This document shows, piece by piece, positions 2,106-10,357 of a DNA stretch of 14,712 nucleotides. The stretch lies in NCBI RefSeq assembly GCF_000966975.1, contig NZ_JZWV01000462.1:1-14712 (forward strand). Direction: 5' to 3'. How positions within the stretch are numbered: position 1 is the stretch's first letter; each line of letters begins with the position of its first letter. Source of the stretch: Streptomyces katrae (GTDB taxonomy: Bacteria; Actinomycetota; Actinomycetes; Streptomycetales; Streptomycetaceae). The notes below the pieces were generated by a model that was given only the letters and a program-made list of their open reading frames with translations, searched no databases and was not told the origin of the DNA. Position numbers and translations under genes: made by a program.

Positions 2106-2864
2106 ATGAGCAACCGTGCGCTCCTGGAGGTGATCGCCCTCGACGCGGAGGACGCGGTCGCCGCCCAGGCGGGTGGGGCGGACCGGCTGGAACTGGTCAC
2201 CGACATGGCCGCCGACGGGCTCACCCCGTCGCGCGAGACCTTCGCGGCGATCCGCTCCTCGGTCGACATCCCCCTGCGCGTGATGCTCCGTCTGACGGAC
2301 GGGTTCGCGGCGGGCGACGTCGCCGCGCTGGTCAGGACCGCGCGGGAGCTGCGGGCGGAGGGTGCGGAGGAGTTCGTCCTCGGGTTCCTGCACCCGGACG
2401 GCAGCCCCGACCTGGGGGCGGTCGAGGCGGTGCTCGCGGAGCTCGACGGCTGCCGCTGGACCTTCCACCGCGCCATCGACCGAGCGGCGGACCGGGACGG
2501 GCTGCGCAAGGCGCTGGCCGACCTGCCGGGCCTGGACACCTACCTGACGGCCGGCTCGGCGGCCGGGGTCCCGGACGGGCTGGGCGTCCTGATCGCGGAA
2601 GCCGCGGCGGGCCGGCGCGGCGAGCCGGGATACGGGCCGCGGATCCTCGTCGGCGGCGGGCTGGCCCTGTCTCACGTACCGGTGCTGAGGGAGGCCGGCA
2701 TCGACGCCTTCCACATCGGCGGCGCGGCCCGCCCCTCCGGCTGGCGGAAGCATGGCTCGCACCCCGCCCTCCTGCCGTTCTCCGGGATGCCGGGACCGGT
2801 GTCCCGGAGAAGGGTGAGGGGCGGGGGGCGGGCGGTTGGGCGGTCGGTCAGGCGGTCCGGGTGA
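2106..2864 (+). CDS. cutC: CutC family protein (annotated as copper homeostasis)
   Basis: The product is a TIM-barrel protein of 252 residues, cytoplasmic. Family motifs in order are LLEVIALDAEDAVAAQAGG near the N-terminus, GADRLELV, RVMLR, FVLGFLHPDGSPD, WTFHRAIDRA (the FHRA(F/I)D signature), LTAGSAAGV, ILVGGGL and AFHIGGAARP. The ATG at 2106 has GAAGGA (2091-2096) nine bases upstream, which decides against the longer upstream frame. CutC was named for copper tolerance in E. coli, but a direct copper role is disputed and the enzyme activity is not settled. The last 45 or so residues after GGAARP are Arg/Gly-rich and unlike the usual short CutC end. This tail is encoded through a perfect hairpin at 2778-2811 and overlaps the end of the opposite-strand gene by 17 bp, so the native stop may have been lost. 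A DasR-like site lies upstream. Confidence 0.9.
   Translation: MSNRALLEVIALDAEDAVAAQAGGADRLELVTDMAADGLTPSRETFAAIRSSVDIPLRVMLRLTDGFAAGDVAALVRTARELRAEGAEEFVLGFLHPDGSPDLGAVEAVLAELDGCRWTFHRAIDRAADRDGLRKALADLPGLDTYLTAGSAAGVPDGLGVLIAEAAAGRRGEPGYGPRILVGGGLALSHVPVLREAGIDAFHIGGAARPSGWRKHGSHPALLPFSGMPGPVSRRRVRGGGRAVGRSVRRSG
2778..2811. terminator. Bidirectional terminator-like hairpin between convergent genes
   Basis: TTCTCCGGGA (2778-2787) and TCCCGGAGAA (2802-2811) form a perfect 10-bp stem with a 14-base loop. It begins 36 bp downstream of the stop of the minus-strand NmrA-like gene, a normal terminator position. For the plus strand it falls inside the cutC reading frame, about 50 bp before the stop. 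No T-run follows on either side, which is usual for Streptomyces terminators. Confidence 0.6.
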
Positions 2865-3714
2865 ACGCGTGGAGGTGTTCGCCGAGGAAGGTGTGCAGTG
2901 TCCTGGCGGGGCGGCCGAGGACGGTCTCGACGGTGTTGTTGGGGGATTCCGGGCGGGCGATGGCCAGTTGCTGGATCTCCACCACGTGGTCGGCGAGCCA
3001 GGGCGGCATGTGTGCGTTGGTCAGGAGGTGGCCGTAGAACTCGCTGGGCGGCAGGTCGATGTAGCGGACGGGGCGGCAGGTCAGCTCGCTGAGCAGGCGG
3101 GCGAGTTCGGGGTGGCTGAAGGCCTGCGGGCCGGTCAGGGTGTAGGTGGCGCCGGCGAGGCCGGGGCGCAGGAGGGTCTCGGCGGCGACGTCGGCGATGT
3201 CGCGGACGTCGATGTAGTTGCAGGGTGCGTCGCCCATGGCTCCGATGAGTACGCCCCTGGCGATGGCGGGGGCGTTCAGGGGCAGCTTCTGCATGAAGGC
3301 GTAGGGCCGCAGGAGCGTGGCCGTCATTCCGGTGGTCGCCAGGTGTTCCTCGATCCGCCAGTGGCTGCGCGAGATGGCCACCGGTGAGGTGGGCTCGGCT
3401 GCGGGGGCGGAGAGTTTGACCACGTGCCGTACCCCTTGGTGGGCCGCGGCGTCTATCACGTTGGTCTCCAGCTCGGCTTGGAGCGGGCTGTTGGCCATGG
3501 CGAGGAACAACTGCGTGGAGCCCTCGAAGGCGTCGCGGAGCGTCCGGGGGTCTGCGGCGTCCGCACCGACGATCTCGACCGGGGTGTTCGTGCCGATGGT
3601 GGCGCGCAGGTTGTCGGGCGTGCGGCTGACGGCGCGGCAGGGGACTTCGAGTTCGATGAGCCGCTGGAGCAGGGCGCTGCCGGTGGCGCCGGTGGCGCCG
3701 ACGATGGTGATCAC
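2848..3714 (-). CDS. NmrA-like NAD(P)-binding protein (SDR-type, possible quinone oxidoreductase)
   Basis: The product is a 288-residue cytoplasmic protein of the atypical short-chain dehydrogenase group. The N-terminus VITIVGATGATGS is a Rossmann glycine motif (GxxGxxG), followed by a basic patch (RAVSRTPDNLR) that could bind the NADP phosphate. VKLSAPAAE, LRPYAFMQ and IDVRDIADVA match conserved parts of NmrA/QOR2-type proteins. Family members are either NAD(P)-dependent reductases or redox sensors without activity, and sequence alone does not decide. The start is the GTG at 3714, with GAAAGG six bases upstream; the open frame continues to 3861, but that part covers the end of the preceding gene. 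The membrane-protein gene ends 37 bp upstream on the same strand, so both are likely one operon under the MarR-type operators at 4232-4268. Confidence 0.88.
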   Translation of the reverse strand: MITIVGATGATGSALLQRLIELEVPCRAVSRTPDNLRATIGTNTPVEIVGADAADPRTLRDAFEGSTQLFLAMANSPLQAELETNVIDAAAHQGVRHVVKLSAPAAEPTSPVAISRSHWRIEEHLATTGMTATLLRPYAFMQKLPLNAPAIARGVLIGAMGDAPCNYIDVRDIADVAAETLLRPGLAGATYTLTGPQAFSHPELARLLSELTCRPVRYIDLPPSEFYGHLLTNAHMPPWLADHVVEIQQLAIARPESPNNTVETVLGRPARTLHTFLGEHLHAFTRTA

Positions 3715-3751
3715 TGTGTGCCTTTCGTGGGCGGGAAGGGGCTGGGTCAGG

Positions 3752-4213
3752 TCAGGTCTGTTGCCGGGACGCCGTGCCGTGCCAGCGCCAGGTGACGATG
3801 GTGGTGGCCAGGCCGGCCGACAGCGGCAGGTCGATCCGCAGCCGCTGCAGCCATCGGGCATCGGGTACCGGGGTGTGCGACGGCAGCCAGTCGGATACGA
3901 ACCATCCGGCCAGGCCGGCGATCGCGACCGCTGTCACGGCGAGTCCGAGGGTGAGCACCGGTCGCGGCATCGCGGCCGTCCAGAGCCGGGGCCGGCCGCG
4001 GCGGTGCAGCCATGAGCCGACGATGCAGGCCACCAGGGCCGACGTGACCCCGATGGAGGTGAAGGCGGCCCTGGTCACTTCGGGCTGGCGGCTGAGGAAT
4101 CCGCCGAGCCCGGCGGTGAGCGCGGGGGCCAGGTAGGCGGTCGCGACCTCCTTCCACAGGGTGAACGGACGGGTGGCGGAACCGCGCTGGGCGGTACTGG
4201 GAGGGGGGCTCAT
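3752..4213 (-). CDS. Hypothetical four-helix membrane protein
   Basis: The product is a 153-residue protein I do not recognise. Four hydrophobic segments are visible near residues 26-43, 49-69, 83-109 and 127-144, with short charged linkers (for example HRRGRPR). Its size and helix count recall DoxX or DUF1772-type proteins, but no diagnostic motif is seen. The ATG at 4213 has a good GAGGAG four bases upstream. A second minus-strand frame covers almost the same bases (3747-4238) but gives an Arg/Pro/His-rich product with no plausible helices, so it is rejected. The gene is immediately downstream of two MarR-type operators and is followed after 37 bp by the NmrA-like gene. It is probably the first gene of the regulated operon. 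Confidence 0.72.
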   Translation of the reverse strand: MSPPPSTAQRGSATRPFTLWKEVATAYLAPALTAGLGGFLSRQPEVTRAAFTSIGVTSALVACIVGSWLHRRGRPRLWTAAMPRPVLTLGLAVTAVAIAGLAGWFVSDWLPSHTPVPDARWLQRLRIDLPLSAGLATTIVTWRWHGTASRQQT

Positions 4214-4331: not shown

Positions 4332-4853
4332 CTATTCGGCGGTCAGTGCGCCGATCCGCTGGGTGATCCGCTCCAGGAGGTCGAGGAACAGCCCGCGTTC
4401 GTCGGCGGCCAGCCCGCCGACCAGCGCCTCAAGCCGTGCGAAGTGATCCGCCGCCATGTCGTGCAGCCGCCGGCTGCCGCGCGCCGTGAGCACGACCACC
4501 GCGCCACGCCCGTCCTCCGTCGAGGCGCGTCGGGCCACCAGGCCCTCTCGCTCCAGACCGGCGACCAGGCCGGTCACCGTGGCGCGCGAGACGCCGAGGC
4601 TCTTCGCGAGCTGCGACGGCGACTTCTCCCCGTCGCCGTCCTCGAGGTCCACCAGGAGGCGGTAGCGACCGGTCGACAGCCCGGACCGCGCGAAGTGCAC
4701 CTCGGACGCCCGGTCCAGGCGCGCCCCGGCGGCCATCAGGCGCACCGCGACGAGCACCGCCTGCGGGTCGGCCTCAAGCCCGTACCGCGCGATCTGCTTA
4801 CGCGCCTGATCGAGCGTGGGTGCAGCGCCGGGGTTCACGTCCTCGTGACTCAT
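4332..4853 (-). CDS. MarR/SlyA-family transcriptional regulator
   Basis: The product is a 173-residue dimeric winged-helix DNA-binding protein. The helix-turn-helix is near residues 79-105 (SQLAKSLGVSRATVTGLVAG), followed by the wing (RRASTEDGRGAVVVLTARG, about 108-126) containing the DxR motif typical of MarR proteins. The flanking N- and C-terminal helices form the dimer interface. The ATG at 4853 is chosen because a promoter ends seven bases before it; an upstream in-frame TTG (4889) lies inside that promoter's -35 box. There is no ribosome site, consistent with a leaderless message. An inverted repeat (4864-4878) between the -35 and -10 suggests autoregulation. Targets are likely its own gene and the downstream membrane protein/NmrA-like pair. 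MarR proteins commonly respond to phenolics, oxidants or antibiotics; the ligand here is unknown. Confidence 0.9.
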   Translation of the reverse strand: MSHEDVNPGAAPTLDQARKQIARYGLEADPQAVLVAVRLMAAGARLDRASEVHFARSGLSTGRYRLLVDLEDGDGEKSPSQLAKSLGVSRATVTGLVAGLEREGLVARRASTEDGRGAVVVLTARGSRRLHDMAADHFARLEALVGGLAADERGLFLDLLERITQRIGALTAE

Positions 4854-4889
4854 GGGAAGTAATATGGTGCCTAACCATCTGCCAGTCAA
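4854..4889 (-). promoter_or_regulatory. Leaderless promoter with internal operator for the MarR gene
   Basis: Reading the minus strand, TTGACT (4889-4884) is a five-of-six match to the -35 consensus. It is followed by exactly 17 bp and then CATATT (4866-4861, -10), then seven bases to the ATG at 4853. Transcription should begin at or next to the A of the start codon. The spacer holds the inverted repeat ATGGT-TAGGC-ACCAT (4878-4864). Bases 4855-4881 align without gaps to 4224-4250 in front of the regulated operon (19 of 27 identical), sharing GGAAGTAAT and CTAAC. Confidence 0.75.
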
Positions 4890-4986: not shown

Positions 4987-7128
4987 TCAGGCGGCCGAGA
5001 GGGCCGCCGGGAGGGGAGCGGCGTGGAGGGCCGTGAGGCCTGAGACGGCTCGGGTGAGGCAGACGTACAGGCGGCGCAGCCCGGTGCGCTCGTCCGGCTC
5101 GCCGTCCACCACCGCCGCCGGCTCGTCCAGCACGACGTAGTCGTACTCCAGGCCCTTGGCGAGGGACGCCGGAACCAGCGTCAGCCGGGACTCGGCCGTC
5201 GTCTCCTCGCCGGGCGACAGGTACGCCATCCCCGCCGCGTCCAGCGCCTCCGCCAGTACCGGGATCCGCGCGTCGGCCGCGATCAGACCCACCGAGCCCT
5301 CGTACGCGAGGAAGTCCCGGCAGGCGCCGATGACGTCCGCCACCAGCTCGTCCGGGGCCGACTCGGACACCGTCAGCGACCCAGGCGTCTCACGCACCGA
5401 CGACACCGCCGCCAGCCCCGGCGAGATCTCCGGCAGCAGCCGCGACGCGTACGCGATCACCTCGCGCGGCACGCGGAAGCCCGCCGTCAGCTCCTCCAGC
5501 ACCGCCTCCGGCTTGCCCAGGTGCGCCAGCGCCTCCGCCCAGCTGCGGGTGGCCCACGGGGTCGTGCCCTGCGCGAGGTCGCCCAGTACCGTCGCCGAGC
5601 CCGTCGTGCAGCGGCGTCCCACCGCCCGGTACTGCATCGGCGACAGGTCCTGCGCCTCGTCGACGACGACGTGCCCGAGCGAGTGCGTCCGCTCCACCAG
5701 GTCGGCGGCCTCGTCGATGAGGACGAGGTCCGCCGCCGACCACTTCGCCGACTTCACGCTCCGGAACGGCTTCGGCCACAGCAGCAGCTTCTGCTCGTCC
5801 TCCGTCAGGACCCCCTCGGCGTGCTCCGCCAGGAACTCCGGGTCCGACAGCAGCCGCAGGACCAGCTTCGCCGGTTCGACCAGCGGCCAGATCGCCTTGA
5901 CGGCCGCCTTCACCGCCGCGTTGCGGGCCACCGCGTCCTGCACCCGGTCGTCGGGCGCCTCGCCCGCCTGCTCCATGCGGACGAGGACGGCGTGCGCGAT
6001 CCGCTGCGGCAGCGCGTCGCGGGCGGCGCCGTAGCGGATGTCGCGGTTCTGGAGCTCGGTGACGATCTCCTCCAGCTCGTACGCGGGCACCCGCCAGCGG
6101 CGCGATCCGCGGACCACCATCAGCGGCTCGGCCGGCGCGGTGACGTGGGAGCGGACCGCGCGGCGCAGCACCTCCGCCATCCGGGCGTCGCCCTTGACCA
6201 CGGCCGTCGCGGCGGTGTCGCTGCCGCGCACCTCCAGGCCCGGGCGGGCGACGAGGTCGTCCACGGTCGCCTGCTGCACCTCCAGCTCGCCCAGCGCGGG
6301 CAGGACCTGCTCGATGTAGTGCAGGAAGGAACGGTTCGGCCCGATGACGAGCGTGCCGGTGCGGGCGAGCCGCTCGCGGTGCGCGTACAGCAGGTACGCC
6401 ACCCGGTGCAGGCCCACGGCCGTCTTCCCGGTGCCGGGGCCGCCCTGGACGCACACCGAGCCGGACAGGCCGGAGCGGACGATCTCGTCCTGCTCCGGCT
6501 GGATCGTGGCGACGATGTCGCGCATCGGGCCGACGCGGGGGCGTTCGATCTCCTGCTGGAGCAGCTTGCTGACGGCGGCGGCCTCGGCCGGGTCGGAGAG
6601 GTGCTCGTCCTCGTACGCGGTGAGGTCGCCGCCGGTGTAGCCGAAGCGGCGGCGCAGCGCGATGTCCTGCGGGTCGGCCTTCGAGGCGCGGTAGAAGGGC
6701 TGCGACACGGGCGCGCGCCAGTCGATGACCATCGGGTCGCCGTCGGCGTCGTGGACGTGGCGGCGGCCGATGTAGAACTGCTCGCCGCCCGCGCCCTCGG
6801 CGAGGTCGGCGCCCGGGGCGTGGAGGTAGTCGAGGCGGCCGAAGAACAGCGGGGTGTGGGACAGGTCGGCCAGCGCCTTGATGCGGTCGTCGATCTGCGC
6901 CTGGAGGACGACGGCGTTGACCCAGTTCGCGGTGACGTCGCGGATGTCGAGGGCCTCGACGTCCTCGCGCATCGCGCGCAGGGCGGCCCGGGAGGCGGCC
7001 AGGTGGGCGCGCTCGCGGCCGAGGAGGCCGGCGGTGTCGGCGGTGTCGGGGGTGCCGACGGGGGTGGTGGTGGCCGTGCCGGGTGCGGCGGTGTCGTCGG
7101 GCGTGGTGTCGGGGGCGTGCGCGGGCAC
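4987..7128 (-). CDS. helD: HelD-family RNA polymerase recycling ATPase (UvrD/SF1-like)
   Basis: The product is a 713-residue cytoplasmic ATPase. HelD proteins bind RNA polymerase, push arms into its channels and release stalled or idle enzyme using ATP. The N-terminal 100 or so residues are helical and charged, fitting the secondary-channel coiled-coil arm. A HelD hallmark, VIDWRAPVSQPFYRAS, lies near residues 133-147. RDIVATIQPEQDEIVR is followed by Walker A GGPGTGKTAV (Lys235). Walker B VVVDEAQD is near 488-494; KGLEYDYVVLDEP near 656 and YVCLTRA near 686 are SF1 motifs V and VI. The length is near that of mycobacterial HelD (about 736). I place it in the general HelD group rather than the rifampicin-linked HelR branch, whose N-terminus looks different. 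The start is the GTG at 7128, with GGAGG seven bases upstream. The leader carries an attenuator-like hairpin pair. Confidence 0.9.
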   Translation of the reverse strand: MPAHAPDTTPDDTAAPGTATTTPVGTPDTADTAGLLGRERAHLAASRAALRAMREDVEALDIRDVTANWVNAVVLQAQIDDRIKALADLSHTPLFFGRLDYLHAPGADLAEGAGGEQFYIGRRHVHDADGDPMVIDWRAPVSQPFYRASKADPQDIALRRRFGYTGGDLTAYEDEHLSDPAEAAAVSKLLQQEIERPRVGPMRDIVATIQPEQDEIVRSGLSGSVCVQGGPGTGKTAVGLHRVAYLLYAHRERLARTGTLVIGPNRSFLHYIEQVLPALGELEVQQATVDDLVARPGLEVRGSDTAATAVVKGDARMAEVLRRAVRSHVTAPAEPLMVVRGSRRWRVPAYELEEIVTELQNRDIRYGAARDALPQRIAHAVLVRMEQAGEAPDDRVQDAVARNAAVKAAVKAIWPLVEPAKLVLRLLSDPEFLAEHAEGVLTEDEQKLLLWPKPFRSVKSAKWSAADLVLIDEAADLVERTHSLGHVVVDEAQDLSPMQYRAVGRRCTTGSATVLGDLAQGTTPWATRSWAEALAHLGKPEAVLEELTAGFRVPREVIAYASRLLPEISPGLAAVSSVRETPGSLTVSESAPDELVADVIGACRDFLAYEGSVGLIAADARIPVLAEALDAAGMAYLSPGEETTAESRLTLVPASLAKGLEYDYVVLDEPAAVVDGEPDERTGLRRLYVCLTRAVSGLTALHAAPLPAALSAA

Positions 7129-7160
7129 GGGACTGCCTCCAGCGGCTTCGGTGCGGAACA

Positions 7161-7187
7161 GAAACCCACCGGTTTCCGTCCGGTGGG
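7161..7187 (-). terminator. Attenuator-like hairpin pair in the helD leader
   Basis: On the minus-strand transcript, CCCACCGG and CCGGTGGG (7187-7180 and 7172-7165) form a perfect 8-bp stem with a 7-base loop, followed directly by TTTCTGTT, like an intrinsic terminator. A competing stem, GAAACC-GGTG-GGTTTC (7176-7161), uses part of the same bases, so the two cannot form together. The helD ribosome site follows about 25 bases downstream. This arrangement is typical of transcription attenuation. Confidence 0.6.
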
Positions 7188-7229
7188 CGGCTCTCCCCGG
7201 TGCGGCGGCGGGAGGCGGCAAGAGCGGAG

Positions 7230-7235
7230 ATTGTA
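7230..7235 (-). promoter_or_regulatory. Probable helD -10 box
   Basis: TACAAT on the minus strand matches the -10 consensus in five of six bases and lies in otherwise very GC-rich DNA. A start about seven bases downstream (near 7222) would give a leader of about 95 nt containing the attenuator. The -35 is poor (TTCGCG, 18 bp upstream), so activation or another sigma factor is possible. An in-frame TTG (7221) lies almost at the predicted RNA start. Confidence 0.5.
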
Positions 7236-7293
7236 GTCAGGGGGCGGGGCCGGCGCGAATGGATTTACGGGCCCCGGGGTCTGGGCGGCCGGT

Positions 7294-7326
7294 ACACCCG
7301 TACGGGTGTCATACCCGGGGGTGTCA
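7294..7326. promoter_or_regulatory. Perfect 16-bp palindrome plus direct repeats
   Basis: ACACCCGTACGGGTGT (7294-7309) is a perfect 16-bp palindrome. Its right half continues as GGGTGTCA (7304-7311), which is repeated at 7319-7326, a 15-bp spacing. The neighbouring TACCC-GG-GGGTG (7313-7323) loosely resembles metal-sensor (CsoR-type) half-sites, but I would not name the factor. The location between divergent genes suggests an operator. Confidence 0.5.
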
Positions 7327-7439
7327 GACCTTCGGCAGAGGCCCAGGGAAAACCATGGGACGTGAGGAGGAGCCGGGGGCCTGTGAGATTGGCTCTCCAG
7401 ACCGATGTGCGGAGCGGGGAGAAAACGCACCATGGATAC

Positions 7440-7625
7440 ATGAGCACCGCAACCCTCACCCCGATCCAGGGCGGCCGCCCTAGCGGCGCCACCGCCACCT
7501 CCTCCCACCACCCCCGCCACCGCGTCGGCGACGTCCTGCGCGCCGTGAAGGTCTTCGCGACCGCCGCCGTGAGCGTTGTCGTCCTCGGCGAGTACTCCGA
7601 GGACGCGGGCGTCATACGCCGCTGA
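7440..7625 (+). CDS. Small conserved-looking hypothetical protein (61 aa)
   Basis: The product has 61 residues. A Ser/Thr/Pro/His-rich N-terminus is followed by RVGDVLRAVKVFATAAVSVVVLGEYSEDAG, with one short hydrophobic stretch near residues 34-49 that could be a membrane-associated or packing helix. The coding pattern (G/C third bases, ordered amphipathic part) supports a real gene. I recall similar short Streptomyces proteins but no function. The ATG at 7440 has no ribosome site of its own. GGGGAG (7416-7421) instead suits an ATG at 7432, which encodes only Met-Asp-Thr and stops in TGA overlapping this start as ATGA. Translation may therefore be coupled. The stop lies in a 12-bp tandem repeat. 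It is divergent from helD. Confidence 0.65.
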   Translation: MSTATLTPIQGGRPSGATATSSHHPRHRVGDVLRAVKVFATAAVSVVVLGEYSEDAGVIRR

Positions 7626-7712: not shown

Positions 7713-7732
7713 TAGGGTCACGCGCGTGACCC
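7713..7732 (+). promoter_or_regulatory. Leaderless -10 box and 18-bp palindrome across the GTG start
   Basis: TAGGGT (7713-7718) fits the Streptomyces -10 pattern TANNNT and ends seven bases before the GTG at 7726, with no ribosome site between. A leaderless start is likely. GGGTCACGCGCGTGACCC (7715-7732) is a perfect 18-bp palindrome covering the -10, the start point and the start codon, so a bound protein or an RNA hairpin could control it. The -35 region is not convincing. Confidence 0.55.
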
Positions 7733-8586
7733 GCAGCCCCGATCCCGACCGCTCGCCGTCGCCCCTCGCCGGCATGCTGGTCACAGGGGCGCTGCTCACC
7801 CTCGGCGTGCTGTGCGTCGCCCTGCGCGTCCCGACCGCCGACGCCCTCCTCAGCGGGTTCTCCGCCGCCGACTGGCACCCGCCCGCCGGCTACCCGCCGT
7901 TCGCCGCGATCCTCTTCACCCCCGCCGCCTGGCTGCCCGCCGGCGTGCTCAAGGCCGTCCTCGTCCTCGGGAACGGCGGCCTGCTCGCCCTGCTGGTCCT
8001 GCTCTCCTGCCGGCTCGCGGGAGTACGCGCCCGGCCGGGTCCCGTCCTGGCCGCCACCATCGCCGGGCTGTGGCTGGAGCCGCTGTTCCAGAGCCCGCTG
8101 CCCGGCCAGATCAACCTGGCGCTGGCCTGCCTGGCCCTGTGGGACCTGGGCCGGCCGCGCGGCGCCCTCGGCAAGGGCTTCGCCCTGGGCACCGCCGCCG
8201 GGATCACCCTGACCCCGGCGGTGTTCATCCCGTACCTGCTGCTCACCGGACGGGTCCGGGCCGGCCTGACCGCCCTGGCCGGCTTCACCGGGACCGCCCT
8301 GCTCGGCGCCCTCGTCCTCCCCGAGGCCTCCGCCGACTTCTGGGCCCACCACCCGCCGACGGCCGACGGGGCCCCGCTGCTGCACTGGCAGCAGCTGTGG
8401 GTGTGGGCCGTCCCGCCGCTCACCGCCCTCGCGGTGAGGACGGCGGGCGCCCTCCGGGGCCGCCGCCACCGCGCGACGGAGGCCCCGGTCCCCGCCCCCG
8501 GGTCACCCCTGGGGCGGGAGGACGCGTGGGACGTGGGGGACGCGGGCCCGGTCAGTCACCGGCCAGCAGCTCGTCGGCGTCCATGA
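7726..8586 (+). CDS. Shortened GT87/DUF2029-like membrane glycosyltransferase
   Basis: The product has 286 residues and about seven hydrophobic segments. HPPAGYPPFAAILFTPAAWLP and SPLPGQINLALACLALWDLGR followed by GITLTPAVFIPYLLLTGR match the (T)YPPFA, GQxNL and K/TLTP..F.PYL pattern of polyprenol-phosphate-mannose-dependent GT87 enzymes, which add mannose outside the membrane. The usual Lys in the KLTP motif is Thr here. Family members are usually around 400 residues. The N-terminus lacks the usual long first loop, and after FWAHHPP the sequence jumps to HWQQLWVWAVPPLTALA, resembling the far C-terminal SW.HH.VW helix, so a middle part appears absent. Activity is therefore doubtful. The GTG start is placed by a leaderless promoter. 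The C-terminal 45 residues are low-complexity, run through a hairpin and overlap the XPB gene by 35 bp. Confidence 0.7.
   Translation: MTRSPDPDRSPSPLAGMLVTGALLTLGVLCVALRVPTADALLSGFSAADWHPPAGYPPFAAILFTPAAWLPAGVLKAVLVLGNGGLLALLVLLSCRLAGVRARPGPVLAATIAGLWLEPLFQSPLPGQINLALACLALWDLGRPRGALGKGFALGTAAGITLTPAVFIPYLLLTGRVRAGLTALAGFTGTALLGALVLPEASADFWAHHPPTADGAPLLHWQQLWVWAVPPLTALAVRTAGALRGRRHRATEAPVPAPGSPLGREDAWDVGDAGPVSHRPAARRRP
8491..8518. terminator. Hairpin downstream of the XPB helicase gene
   Basis: CCCGCCCC (8491-8498) and GGGGCGGG (8511-8518) form a perfect 8-bp stem with a 12-base loop. It starts about 33 bp past the XPB stop, a normal terminator position on the minus strand. On the plus strand it sits inside the tail of the GT87-like reading frame. 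Confidence 0.5.
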
Positions 8587-10195
8587 TCCGGTACGCGTAG
8601 CCCTGCTCCGCCAGGAAGCGCTGGCGGTGGGCGGCGAAGTCCTGGTCGATCGTGTCCCGCGCCACGACCGAGTAGAACCGCGCCTCGTGCCCGTCCGCCT
8701 TCGGCCGCAGCACCCGGCCCAGGCGCTGAGCCTCCTCCTGCCGGGACCCGAAGGTGCCCGACACCTGGATGGCGACCGTGGCCTCGGGCAGGTCGATGGA
8801 GAAGTTCGCGACCTTCGACACCACCAGCACGTTGATCTCGCCCTCGCGGAAGGCGTCGAAGAGCTTCTCGCGCTGCGCGTTCGAGGTCTCGCCCTTGATC
8901 ACGGGCGCGTCCAGGTGCTCGCCCAGCTCGTCCAGCTGGTCGATGTACTGCCCGATGACCAGCGTCTGCTCGCCCTTGTGCTTGCGCACCAGCGCCTCGG
9001 TGACCTTCCGCTTCGTCGCGGTCGTCGCGCAGAACCGGTACTTCTCCTCCGTCTCCGCCGTCGCGTACGCCAGCCGCTCCGACTCCGTGAGGTTCACCCG
9101 GACCTCGACGCAGTCGGCGGGCGCGATGTAGCCCTGCGCCTCGATCTCCTTCCACGGCGCGTCGAACCGCTTCGGCCCGATCAGCGAGAACACGTCCGAC
9201 TCCCGGCCGTCCTCGCGCACCAGAGTCGCCGTCAGCCCCAGCCGGCGGCGGGCCTGCAGGTCGGCGGTGAACTTGAAGACGGGCGCCGGCAGCAGGTGCA
9301 CCTCGTCGTAGAGGATCAGCCCCCAGTCCCGCGAGTCGAACAGCTCCAGGTGTGGATAAACGCCCTTCCGCTTCGTCGTGAGGACCTGGTACGTGGCGAT
9401 CGTGACGGGCCGGATCTCCTTGCGCGTACCCGAGTACTCGCCGATCTCCTCCTCCGTCAGCGAGGTCCGCCTGACCAGCTCGTGCTTCCACTGCCGCGCG
9501 GAGACCGTGTTCGTCACCAGGATCAGCGTCGTCGCCTTGGCCTTCGCCATCGCCCCGGCCCCGACCAGCGTCTTGCCCGCACCACACGGCAGCACGACCA
9601 CCCCGGACCCGCCGTGCCAGAACCCCTCGACCGCCTGCGCCTGGTACGGCCGCAGCGCCCAGCCGTTCTCCTCCAGCTCGATCGGGTGCGCCTCGCCGTC
9701 CACGTACCCGGCGAGGTCCTCGGCCGGCCAGCCCAGCTTGAGCAGCGTCTGCTTGATCTGCCCGCGCTCCGACGGGTGCACGGCCACCGTGTCGGCGTCG
9801 ATCCGCGCCCCGACCAGCGGCGTGATCCGCTTCGACCGCAGGATCTCCTCCAGCACGGGCCGGTCCGTGCTGGTCAGCACCAGCCCGTGGACGGGGTGCT
9901 TGGAGAGGGTGAGCCGCCCGTAGCGGGCCATCGTCTCGGCCACGTCGACGAGGAGCGCGTGCGGGACGGGGTAGCGGGAGAACTCCACGAGCGCGTCGAC
10001 GACCTGCTCGGCGTCGTGCCCGGCGGCCCGCGCGTTCCACAGCCCCAGCGGGGTGATCCGGTAGGTGTGGATGTGCTCGGGTGCCCGCTCCAGCTCGGCG
10101 AACGGGGCGATGGCCCGGCGCGCGGCACCGGCGAGCTCGTGGTCGACCTCCAGGAGGAGGGTTTTGTCGCTCTGGACGATGAGAGGCCCGTTCAC
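8552..10195 (-). CDS. XPB/Ssl2-type DNA repair helicase (SF2)
   Basis: The product is a 547-residue ATP-dependent 3'-5' DNA helicase, the bacterial relative of eukaryotic XPB. An N-terminal accessory domain (about residues 40-160; HTYRITPLGLWNARAAG onward) is followed by the helicase core. Walker A is PCGAGKTLVG (Lys208). The DEAD-like box is DEVH (297-300). LTATLVRED contains the RED motif (Arg327-Glu-Asp) that marks XPB proteins. Motif VI QRLGRVLRP is near 490. XPB family members open DNA in nucleotide excision repair and transcription initiation; in bacteria the pathway is poorly defined. The GTG at 10195 is chosen for its AAGGGA seven bases upstream. The open frame extends to 10342, but that part is Pro/Arg-rich and overlaps a hairpin. 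The gene overlaps the GT87-like gene tail by 35 bp. Confidence 0.93.
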   Translation of the reverse strand: MNGPLIVQSDKTLLLEVDHELAGAARRAIAPFAELERAPEHIHTYRITPLGLWNARAAGHDAEQVVDALVEFSRYPVPHALLVDVAETMARYGRLTLSKHPVHGLVLTSTDRPVLEEILRSKRITPLVGARIDADTVAVHPSERGQIKQTLLKLGWPAEDLAGYVDGEAHPIELEENGWALRPYQAQAVEGFWHGGSGVVVLPCGAGKTLVGAGAMAKAKATTLILVTNTVSARQWKHELVRRTSLTEEEIGEYSGTRKEIRPVTIATYQVLTTKRKGVYPHLELFDSRDWGLILYDEVHLLPAPVFKFTADLQARRRLGLTATLVREDGRESDVFSLIGPKRFDAPWKEIEAQGYIAPADCVEVRVNLTESERLAYATAETEEKYRFCATTATKRKVTEALVRKHKGEQTLVIGQYIDQLDELGEHLDAPVIKGETSNAQREKLFDAFREGEINVLVVSKVANFSIDLPEATVAIQVSGTFGSRQEEAQRLGRVLRPKADGHEARFYSVVARDTIDQDFAAHRQRFLAEQGYAYRIMDADELLAGD

Positions 10196-10220
10196 GCCTG
10201 GTCCCTTTCCGGCGGGTGGC

Positions 10221-10242
10221 GGCCGCCCGGGCGCGGGCGGCC
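10221..10242 (-). promoter_or_regulatory. Leader hairpin upstream of the XPB gene
   Basis: GGCCGCCC (10221-10228) and GGGCGGCC (10235-10242) form a perfect 8-bp stem with a 6-base loop, 26-47 bases before the XPB start codon. It may terminate transcription from the DUF4291 gene (stop at 10358) or shape the XPB leader. No T-run follows. The rest of 10196-10357 shows no gene. Confidence 0.45.
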
Positions 10243-10357
10243 AAACCTCCAGTCTGCCGCATCCCGCCGCGGGCGCGGGGGTCCCGCCGGGCAGGCCGGG
10301 GAAAAGGCGCCGACGGCGGCCGCGCGAGGCGTGGCCCTCCACCGAGGGGACGGCCGG

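Follow-up and report, generated by a model that had tools for sequence, protein, structure and literature searches.

A conserved leader element upstream of a class II helD gene in Streptomyces and its possible role in gating translation

The helD locus and its promoter

The window analysed here is a stretch of 14,712 nt from Streptomyces katrae (contig NZ_JZWV01000462.1), in which a gene on the minus strand encodes a HelD-like protein. RNA polymerase that has stalled or is bound by a drug is released by HelD proteins, of which Streptomyces have several. The gene and the features of its 5' region are as follows.

4987..7128, minus strand: helD-like gene, GTG start at 7128, stop at 4987, 713 amino acids
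7135..7140, minus strand: helD Shine-Dalgarno (SD) sequence GGAGGC, the rival partner of GCCTCC
7155..7229, minus strand: full extent of the conserved leader element (match to covariance model R1, 72.1 bits)
7157..7164, minus strand: T-rich tail TTTCTGTT
7165..7187, minus strand: P2 hairpin, CCCACCGG, loop ACGGAAA, CCGGTGGG; the stem taken for a terminator in an earlier, sequence-only reading of this DNA
7176-7171 and 7166-7161, minus strand: alternative stem GAAACC/GGTTTC
7190..7196, minus strand: 3' strand of P1, GGAG-A-GC, with one bulged base
7211..7216, minus strand: 5' strand of P1, GCCTCC, exact complement of the SD GGAGGC
7221-7219, minus strand: TTG in frame with the GTG at 7128, stop-free between them; open reading frame 4987..7221
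about 7222-7225, minus strand: expected (predicted) transcription start
7230..7235, minus strand: -10 hexamer TACAAT, from the sequence
7253..7258, minus strand: -35 hexamer TCGCGC, 17-bp spacer
7262..7267, minus strand: WblC/WhiB7-type box TAAATC (consensus GAAAWY), 3 bp upstream of the -35

Downstream of helD, on the minus strand, are genes for a MarR-family regulator (4332-4889) and an NmrA-like NAD(P)-binding protein (2848-3861), and at 75-1361 on the same strand there is an MFS transporter of the Cmx/CmrA chloramphenicol efflux family (500 bits against a cut-off of 400; the CmlV model gives 641 bits, under its cut-off of 830). Divergent from helD is a 60-residue open reading frame beginning MSTATLTP (7443-7625, plus strand), which has no Pfam match; a reverse-strand start that resembles it by eye is present at locus L195. 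A GT87-type glycosyltransferase (7726-8586, plus strand) and an XPB/ERCC3-type DNA helicase (8552-10342, minus strand, as helD) lie beyond it.

The 713-residue protein has UvrD-type helicase domains (Pfam), and the closest solved structure by sequence is that of Mycobacterium smegmatis HelD (PDB 6yxu; 254 bits, E 3e-74), the structure of Bacillus subtilis HelD scoring 112 bits. Since its NCBIfam scores fall far below the HelR/HelD cut-offs (342 bits against 1100 and 305 against 750), the protein is, as judged from these scores, not HelR, the rifampicin type, and is another class II HelD paralogue. A helD match at E ≤ 1e-100 is present in 119 of 121 genomes of the genus, the window's own included; at least one of the 119, G017, has the second paralogue alone (52% identity). 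The two paralogues differ in their distance from dnaA, which is 459-540 kb for the window-type helD and 339-422 kb for the second paralogue in all six genomes compared. In Streptomyces coelicolor, whose dnaA we take to be SCO3879, we infer from position that SCO4316 is the orthologue of the window helD, because it is more distant from dnaA than SCO4195. These are described as the two small class II HelDs of that species (PMC8655204).

Leaders from 80 and 29 loci were examined together with that of the window, 110 in all, and 106 were usable. Three of those left out (L022, L076, L106) have no recognisable motif pair, and L092 was mis-anchored; R1 does match upstream of helD in the genome of the latter (G078).

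Promoters activated by WblC are described as GAAAWY, 3 bp, TKGMNN, 16-19 bp (best 17-18) and TANNNT (PMC7157823). That of the window reads TAAATC-CAT-TCGCGC-17 bp-TACAAT, with one mismatch in the box and two over box and -35 together. A TANNNT hexamer stands at about the -10 place in 106 of 106 leaders. Over box and -35, 24 of the 106 helD promoters match perfectly, 56 come within one mismatch and 79 within two, the spacers of these 79 being 18 bp (46), 17 bp (31), 16 bp (one) and 19 bp (one); at least three mismatches are found in 27 of the 106. Among shuffled upstream sequences, 0.02% come within one mismatch and 0.26% within two. In real DNA from the first-named 80 loci, TANNNT sites away from helD have at most one mismatch in 2 of 529 cases and at most two in 18 of 529, compared with at most one in 47 of 92 sites near the helD start. 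Novobiocin (10 min) is reported to induce SCO4316 in S. coelicolor (log2 2.37), together with wblC (1.91) and tuf3 (4.60) (PMC6637917). The last of these is described as WblC-activated in PMC7157823, the main text of which names neither HelD nor any SCO41xx or SCO43xx gene. From its promoter sequence, helD is probably under WblC-type control, as a putative member of the WblC regulon.

A two-hairpin element in the helD leader

Just after the -10, the 106 leaders carry CTCCGCTCTTGCCCGCCTCCC, a variable loop and then GGAGnGCCGCCGnCCGGnCGGAAACCGGnCGGC or a close variant (79-row consensus). P1, in these 106 leaders, is GCCUCC paired with GGAG-n-GC. P2 is GCCG-n-CCGG paired with CCGG-n-CGGC and closes an NCGGAAA loop that is nearly fixed, on an inner stem that is near-invariant in sequence. 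In the window the strands of P2 are CCCACCGG (7187-7180) and CCGGTGGG (7172-7165), giving eight perfect pairs around ACGGAAA, and an extra G-T pair (7188/7164) extends the stem. This hairpin with short flanks (32 nt) folds with z = -3.03; the 130-nt window leader, first codons included, has z = -0.22, a stability ordinary for its composition. Stability is unremarkable in three of the four full leaders folded, those of the window, L026 (+1.08) and L219 (-0.22), with L180 (-3.21) as the exception.

Three alignments were made. A1 holds 79 of 107 rows, identical rows, long inserts and some others being left out, while A2 (65 leaders) and A3 (54) were hand-chosen for diversity and fitted to the model, so that they lean towards the model's structure. 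Across the family, in the 54 hand-chosen leaders, 95.3% of cells are paired and double changes occur in 5 of 15 pairs; the double-changed cells number 28, against 10.3 in shuffles that ignore relatedness, none of 500 such shuffles being as high. Pairing in the same alignment is at most 51.9% once the partner strand is slid. Within Streptomyces (79 rows), P1 hardly varies and double changes are found at two pairs of P2. One of these is G-C in 47 rows and C-G in 15, with 12 of the 79 unpaired, the C-G rows belonging by eye mostly to the window's clade; the other, at the central n-n position, lacks pairing in 44 of 79. Because P1 is almost invariant in Streptomyces, its covariation comes from few sequences. 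Changed strands picked out by eye are GCCTTCCC/GGGAAGGC for P1 in L183, and for P2 GCCGCCCGG/CCGGGCGGC in L180 and GTCGGCCGG/CCGGTCGAC in L200.

Between the strands of P1 there are 4 to 47 nt across leaders, both strands being kept, and this variable gap argues for an RNA rather than a DNA operator. The sequence-only reading had proposed conservation of its terminator stem and alternative stem as a check; the stem pair conserved on alignment is a different one, P1 with P2, together with the SD. We conclude that the helD leader is very probably a conserved functional RNA element.

Other pairings were considered. RNAalifold, applied to A1, picked another second hairpin, CCGCC[GnCC]GG-n-CGG, with 98.7% of cells paired and no double change; by eye it loses pairs in a sister genus, and it is a possible alternative in Streptomyces only. 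Pairing of TTGCC with a GGCA after the SD was rejected as inconsistent across genera by eye.

At a threshold of E ≤ 0.05, R1 matches in 93 of 101 genomes of the genus. The matches number 105, of which 93, one per genome, immediately precede helD in the same orientation; for the other 12, E ≥ 0.0037. The eight genomes without a match differ in kind. G017 has the second paralogue only; the element is absent from the leader in G022 (L195) and G089 (L196) and is not seen in 330 nt in G088 (L203); P2 is kept and P1 decayed in G037 (L201); the element of G043 is divergent, with a weak match in L200; an insertion separates P1 from P2 in G098 (L106); and G073 has only 39 nt of contig left upstream of the aligned N-terminal part.

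R1 matches in 13 of 14 genomes of one sister genus and in all 35 of another, the weakest of these matches not being separable from chance by E-value alone. The element adjoins helD in 14 of 15 loci from the first of these genera (13 of 14 genomes), an extra weak match (L194) having no helD beside it, and in all 20 loci taken from the second (35 of 35 genomes). At the level of the order, 265 of 293 genomes have a match (a genome-level count). The R1/R2 matches outside the family are weak, with E of 0.018-0.05 in three genomes and 5e-4 to 7e-3 in four, and are treated as chance. Positions 6950-7450 of the window have no Rfam match at E ≤ 1. The element, so far found only in Streptomycetaceae, is a candidate RNA family without an Rfam match. 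We found no published description of the helD leader, of which an unlabelled supplementary-table entry is possible: a table of Rfam-based leader elements in Streptomyces lividans has no helD entry (PMC8079986), and a term count gives no 'HelD' in the main text of a 50-genome RNA survey (PMC11109978).

Several loci depart from the common arrangement. At L022, L076, L195 and L196 the leader element is gone, with a promoter-like -10 and helD retained, and at L045 and L106 P1 and P2 are split by an insertion that may itself form a small hairpin. In genus g2 (L180-L193) the leader has, by eye, an extra lineage-specific 3' domain before the SD, with CTCAAA/TTTGAG in many cases and a long GCTGCGCG/CGCGCAGC hairpin. 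At L206, which encodes a HelD relative of 62% identity in another family of the order, P1 and P2 are absent by eye, and a GCCTCC lies upstream of the SD GGAGGC.

Pairing of the leader with the Shine-Dalgarno sequence

The GCCUCC strand of P1 exactly complements the SD GGAGGC, so that P1 and masking of the SD are mutually exclusive. With the whole helD leader searched, a perfect complement of the leader's own SD hexamer is found in 104 of 106 cases, the exceptions (L018, L083) having GGAGGA as SD. The neighbour-gene controls cover 107 nt only, and in a like-for-like search of the 107 nt upstream the complement occurs in 73 of 106 helD leaders, compared with 2 of the 51 neighbour genes that have GGAGG. 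In 3 of these 51 a C follows the GGAGG; under a less strict start rule the complement occurs in 2 of 36 neighbour genes, none of which has C after GGAGG. Predicted accessibility of the SD is 0.188 for helD (n = 104) against 0.353 for neighbours (n = 112; Mann-Whitney p 8e-7), and 0.192 (n = 79) against 0.349 (n = 45; p 2.6e-4) when matched for GC content, neither set being phylogenetically independent. The SD is still GGAGGC in L022, L076 and L195, three loci without the element.

The predicted balance between the two pairings varies from leader to leader. In the window the SD is bound to GCCUCC with a predicted probability of 0.999. The mean predicted pairing over the 106 leaders is 0.37 for P1 and 0.36 for the SD, and each exceeds 0.5 in only 36 of the 106 Streptomyces leaders. 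Of 32 sister-genus leaders, a set without L192 and L193, 31 were folded, L212 not fitting the pattern; P1 wins in 11 of the 12 g2 leaders folded (predicted SD pairing at most 0.25), on a P1 figure that is the sum over 8 positions divided by 6 and has a maximum of 1.33. A crude series of minimum free energy structures for the growing chain of four leaders gives P1 early in all four, briefly in the window and L014, and SD pairing from 88-107 nt, once the SD is made; the end states are SD pairing (window), P1 (L026, L073) and neither (L014).

Is the complement matched to the SD of its own lineage? In genus g2 the SD is GGGAAGGC, with which the strands of L183 and L191 (GCCTTCCC) pair at -18.7 and -17.1 kcal/mol, compared with -10.1 for the Streptomyces SD. 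The same swap separates own from foreign SD weakly for the GCCTCC strand of Streptomyces (-13.0 against -11.6) and gives no discrimination for the GCCTCCC strand of g2a (L180; -12.7 against -13.0), and the strand of L199 binds the g2 SD (-13.7) better than its own (-11.9).

Possible mechanism, alternatives and related systems

In the scheme we propose, WblC and the primary sigma factor would start the helD mRNA at the WblC/WhiB7-type promoter, and the two adjoining hairpins of the leader would gate its translation. The GCCUCC strand, made first, would pair locally with GGAG-n-GC as P1, beside P2, and the SD would then not be held by it; later pairing of GCCUCC with the SD GGAGGC would turn translation off. 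Recognition probably lies with P2 and its NCGGAAA loop, which would favour P1 either because it folds first or because it binds a small molecule, a protein or RNA polymerase/ribosome. We infer in this way both the switch and its trigger. Translational gating by SD masking, as modelled from predicted folds, seems to us evenly balanced between true and false, and we place the same half-way confidence in the whole reading of a WblC-type promoter, a helD mRNA and a leader that may gate its translation.

Could the leader instead act on transcription? The sequence-only reading had cast P2 as an intrinsic terminator, with the leader RNA ending near 7157 unless the alternative stem, or ribosomes reading from the TTG at 7221, gave relief. 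Its features are real: the -10, the 8-bp stem, the T-rich tail and the alternative stem can all be found in the window, as can a TTG whose frame runs open to the GTG. About 500 bp contain a single terminator-like site, formed by the window stem and TTTCTGTT, where shuffled sequence gives 0.1 on average, and premature 3' ends are reported for other Streptomyces leaders (PMC8269248). These features are rarely shared, however. Taking the best 8 nt that follow the stem, only the leaders of the window and its nearest sister (2 of 106) contain at least five T, with four T in six more, and the exclusive alternative stem is confined to the window, 1 of 106. A TTG is present in 75 of 106 leaders and in frame in 19 of the 75, where chance gives 25; 18 of the 19 are open to the helD start. 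A leader peptide was rejected as a conserved function on these TTG counts. An attenuator would thus be at most private to this strain and its nearest sister, and as an account of the leader we consider it unlikely. Premature termination that needs no U-tract, or that is limited to the strain of the window, is conceivable. What finds support in the sequence-only reading is a regulatory RNA in the helD leader, which is conserved in three genera and shows changes that keep the pairing; the transcription attenuator finds none.

Among readings that do without an SD switch, a protein-binding leader, on which HelD, RNA polymerase or another protein would sit on P1-P2 and repress or stabilise its own mRNA, would account for the near-invariant inner stem and loop of P2, as expected of a binding site, and for the position of all confident R1 matches before helD. 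Protein binding alone leaves the exact SD complement unexplained, and in an RNA polymerase RIP-seq study that includes S. coelicolor, HelD appears twice in the main text, one passage being about M. smegmatis (PMC11077062); we regard this autoregulation as possible, on the doubtful side. The element begins no more than about 10 nt from the expected transcription start, a terminal position that would also suit a non-switching stability element or 5' end protector. For such a role a fixed loop or an SD complement would be superfluous, and the leader is conserved in sequence as well as in pairing; this reading seems improbable. Finally, a convergent antisense promoter within the leader might sense rifampicin, as one is reported to do for helD of B. 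subtilis (PMC12802891). Despite this precedent in a helD gene it is highly improbable here: the stretch from the sense -10 to codon 20 has an antisense TANNNT in 2 of 106 leaders, and that of the window has none.

To return to translational gating by the leader, a dedicated leader on one near-universal helD paralogue, behind a WblC-type promoter, suggests a role against translation-blocking antibiotics, the condition in which transcription and translation uncouple. Tentatively, and with limited confidence, the leader might belong to a class of RNA sensors that is new: its P2 loop would report on the transcription or translation machinery and so open or close the helD SD, under a WblC promoter that answers translation stress. 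If true, this would be a direct regulatory link from blocked ribosomes to the rescue of uncoupled RNA polymerase.

Masking of the SD by alternative strand pairing is the mode of action of translational riboswitches and of leaders of the ribosomal-protein type. The helD leader resembles these in that one strand is predicted to alternate between a local partner and the SD, and differs in having no known ligand or protein and no Rfam match. In Streptomyces venezuelae and Mycobacterium abscessus, helR is controlled by the RAE, a 19-bp palindrome (PMC10719064); there too an element in the 5' region is associated with an actinobacterial class II HelD, whereas helR is another paralogue and the RAE, as described, is set apart from this leader. 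The rifampicin alarm of B. subtilis helD likewise places cis control of a HelD gene in its 5' region and links it to trouble at RNA polymerase. It works through an antisense promoter (PMC12802891), in contrast to the conserved sense leader found here, which has no conserved antisense -10. With the WblC/WhiB7 promoters as described (PMC7157823), the helD promoter shares the GAAAWY box, the 3-bp gap, the -35, the spacer and the TANNNT.
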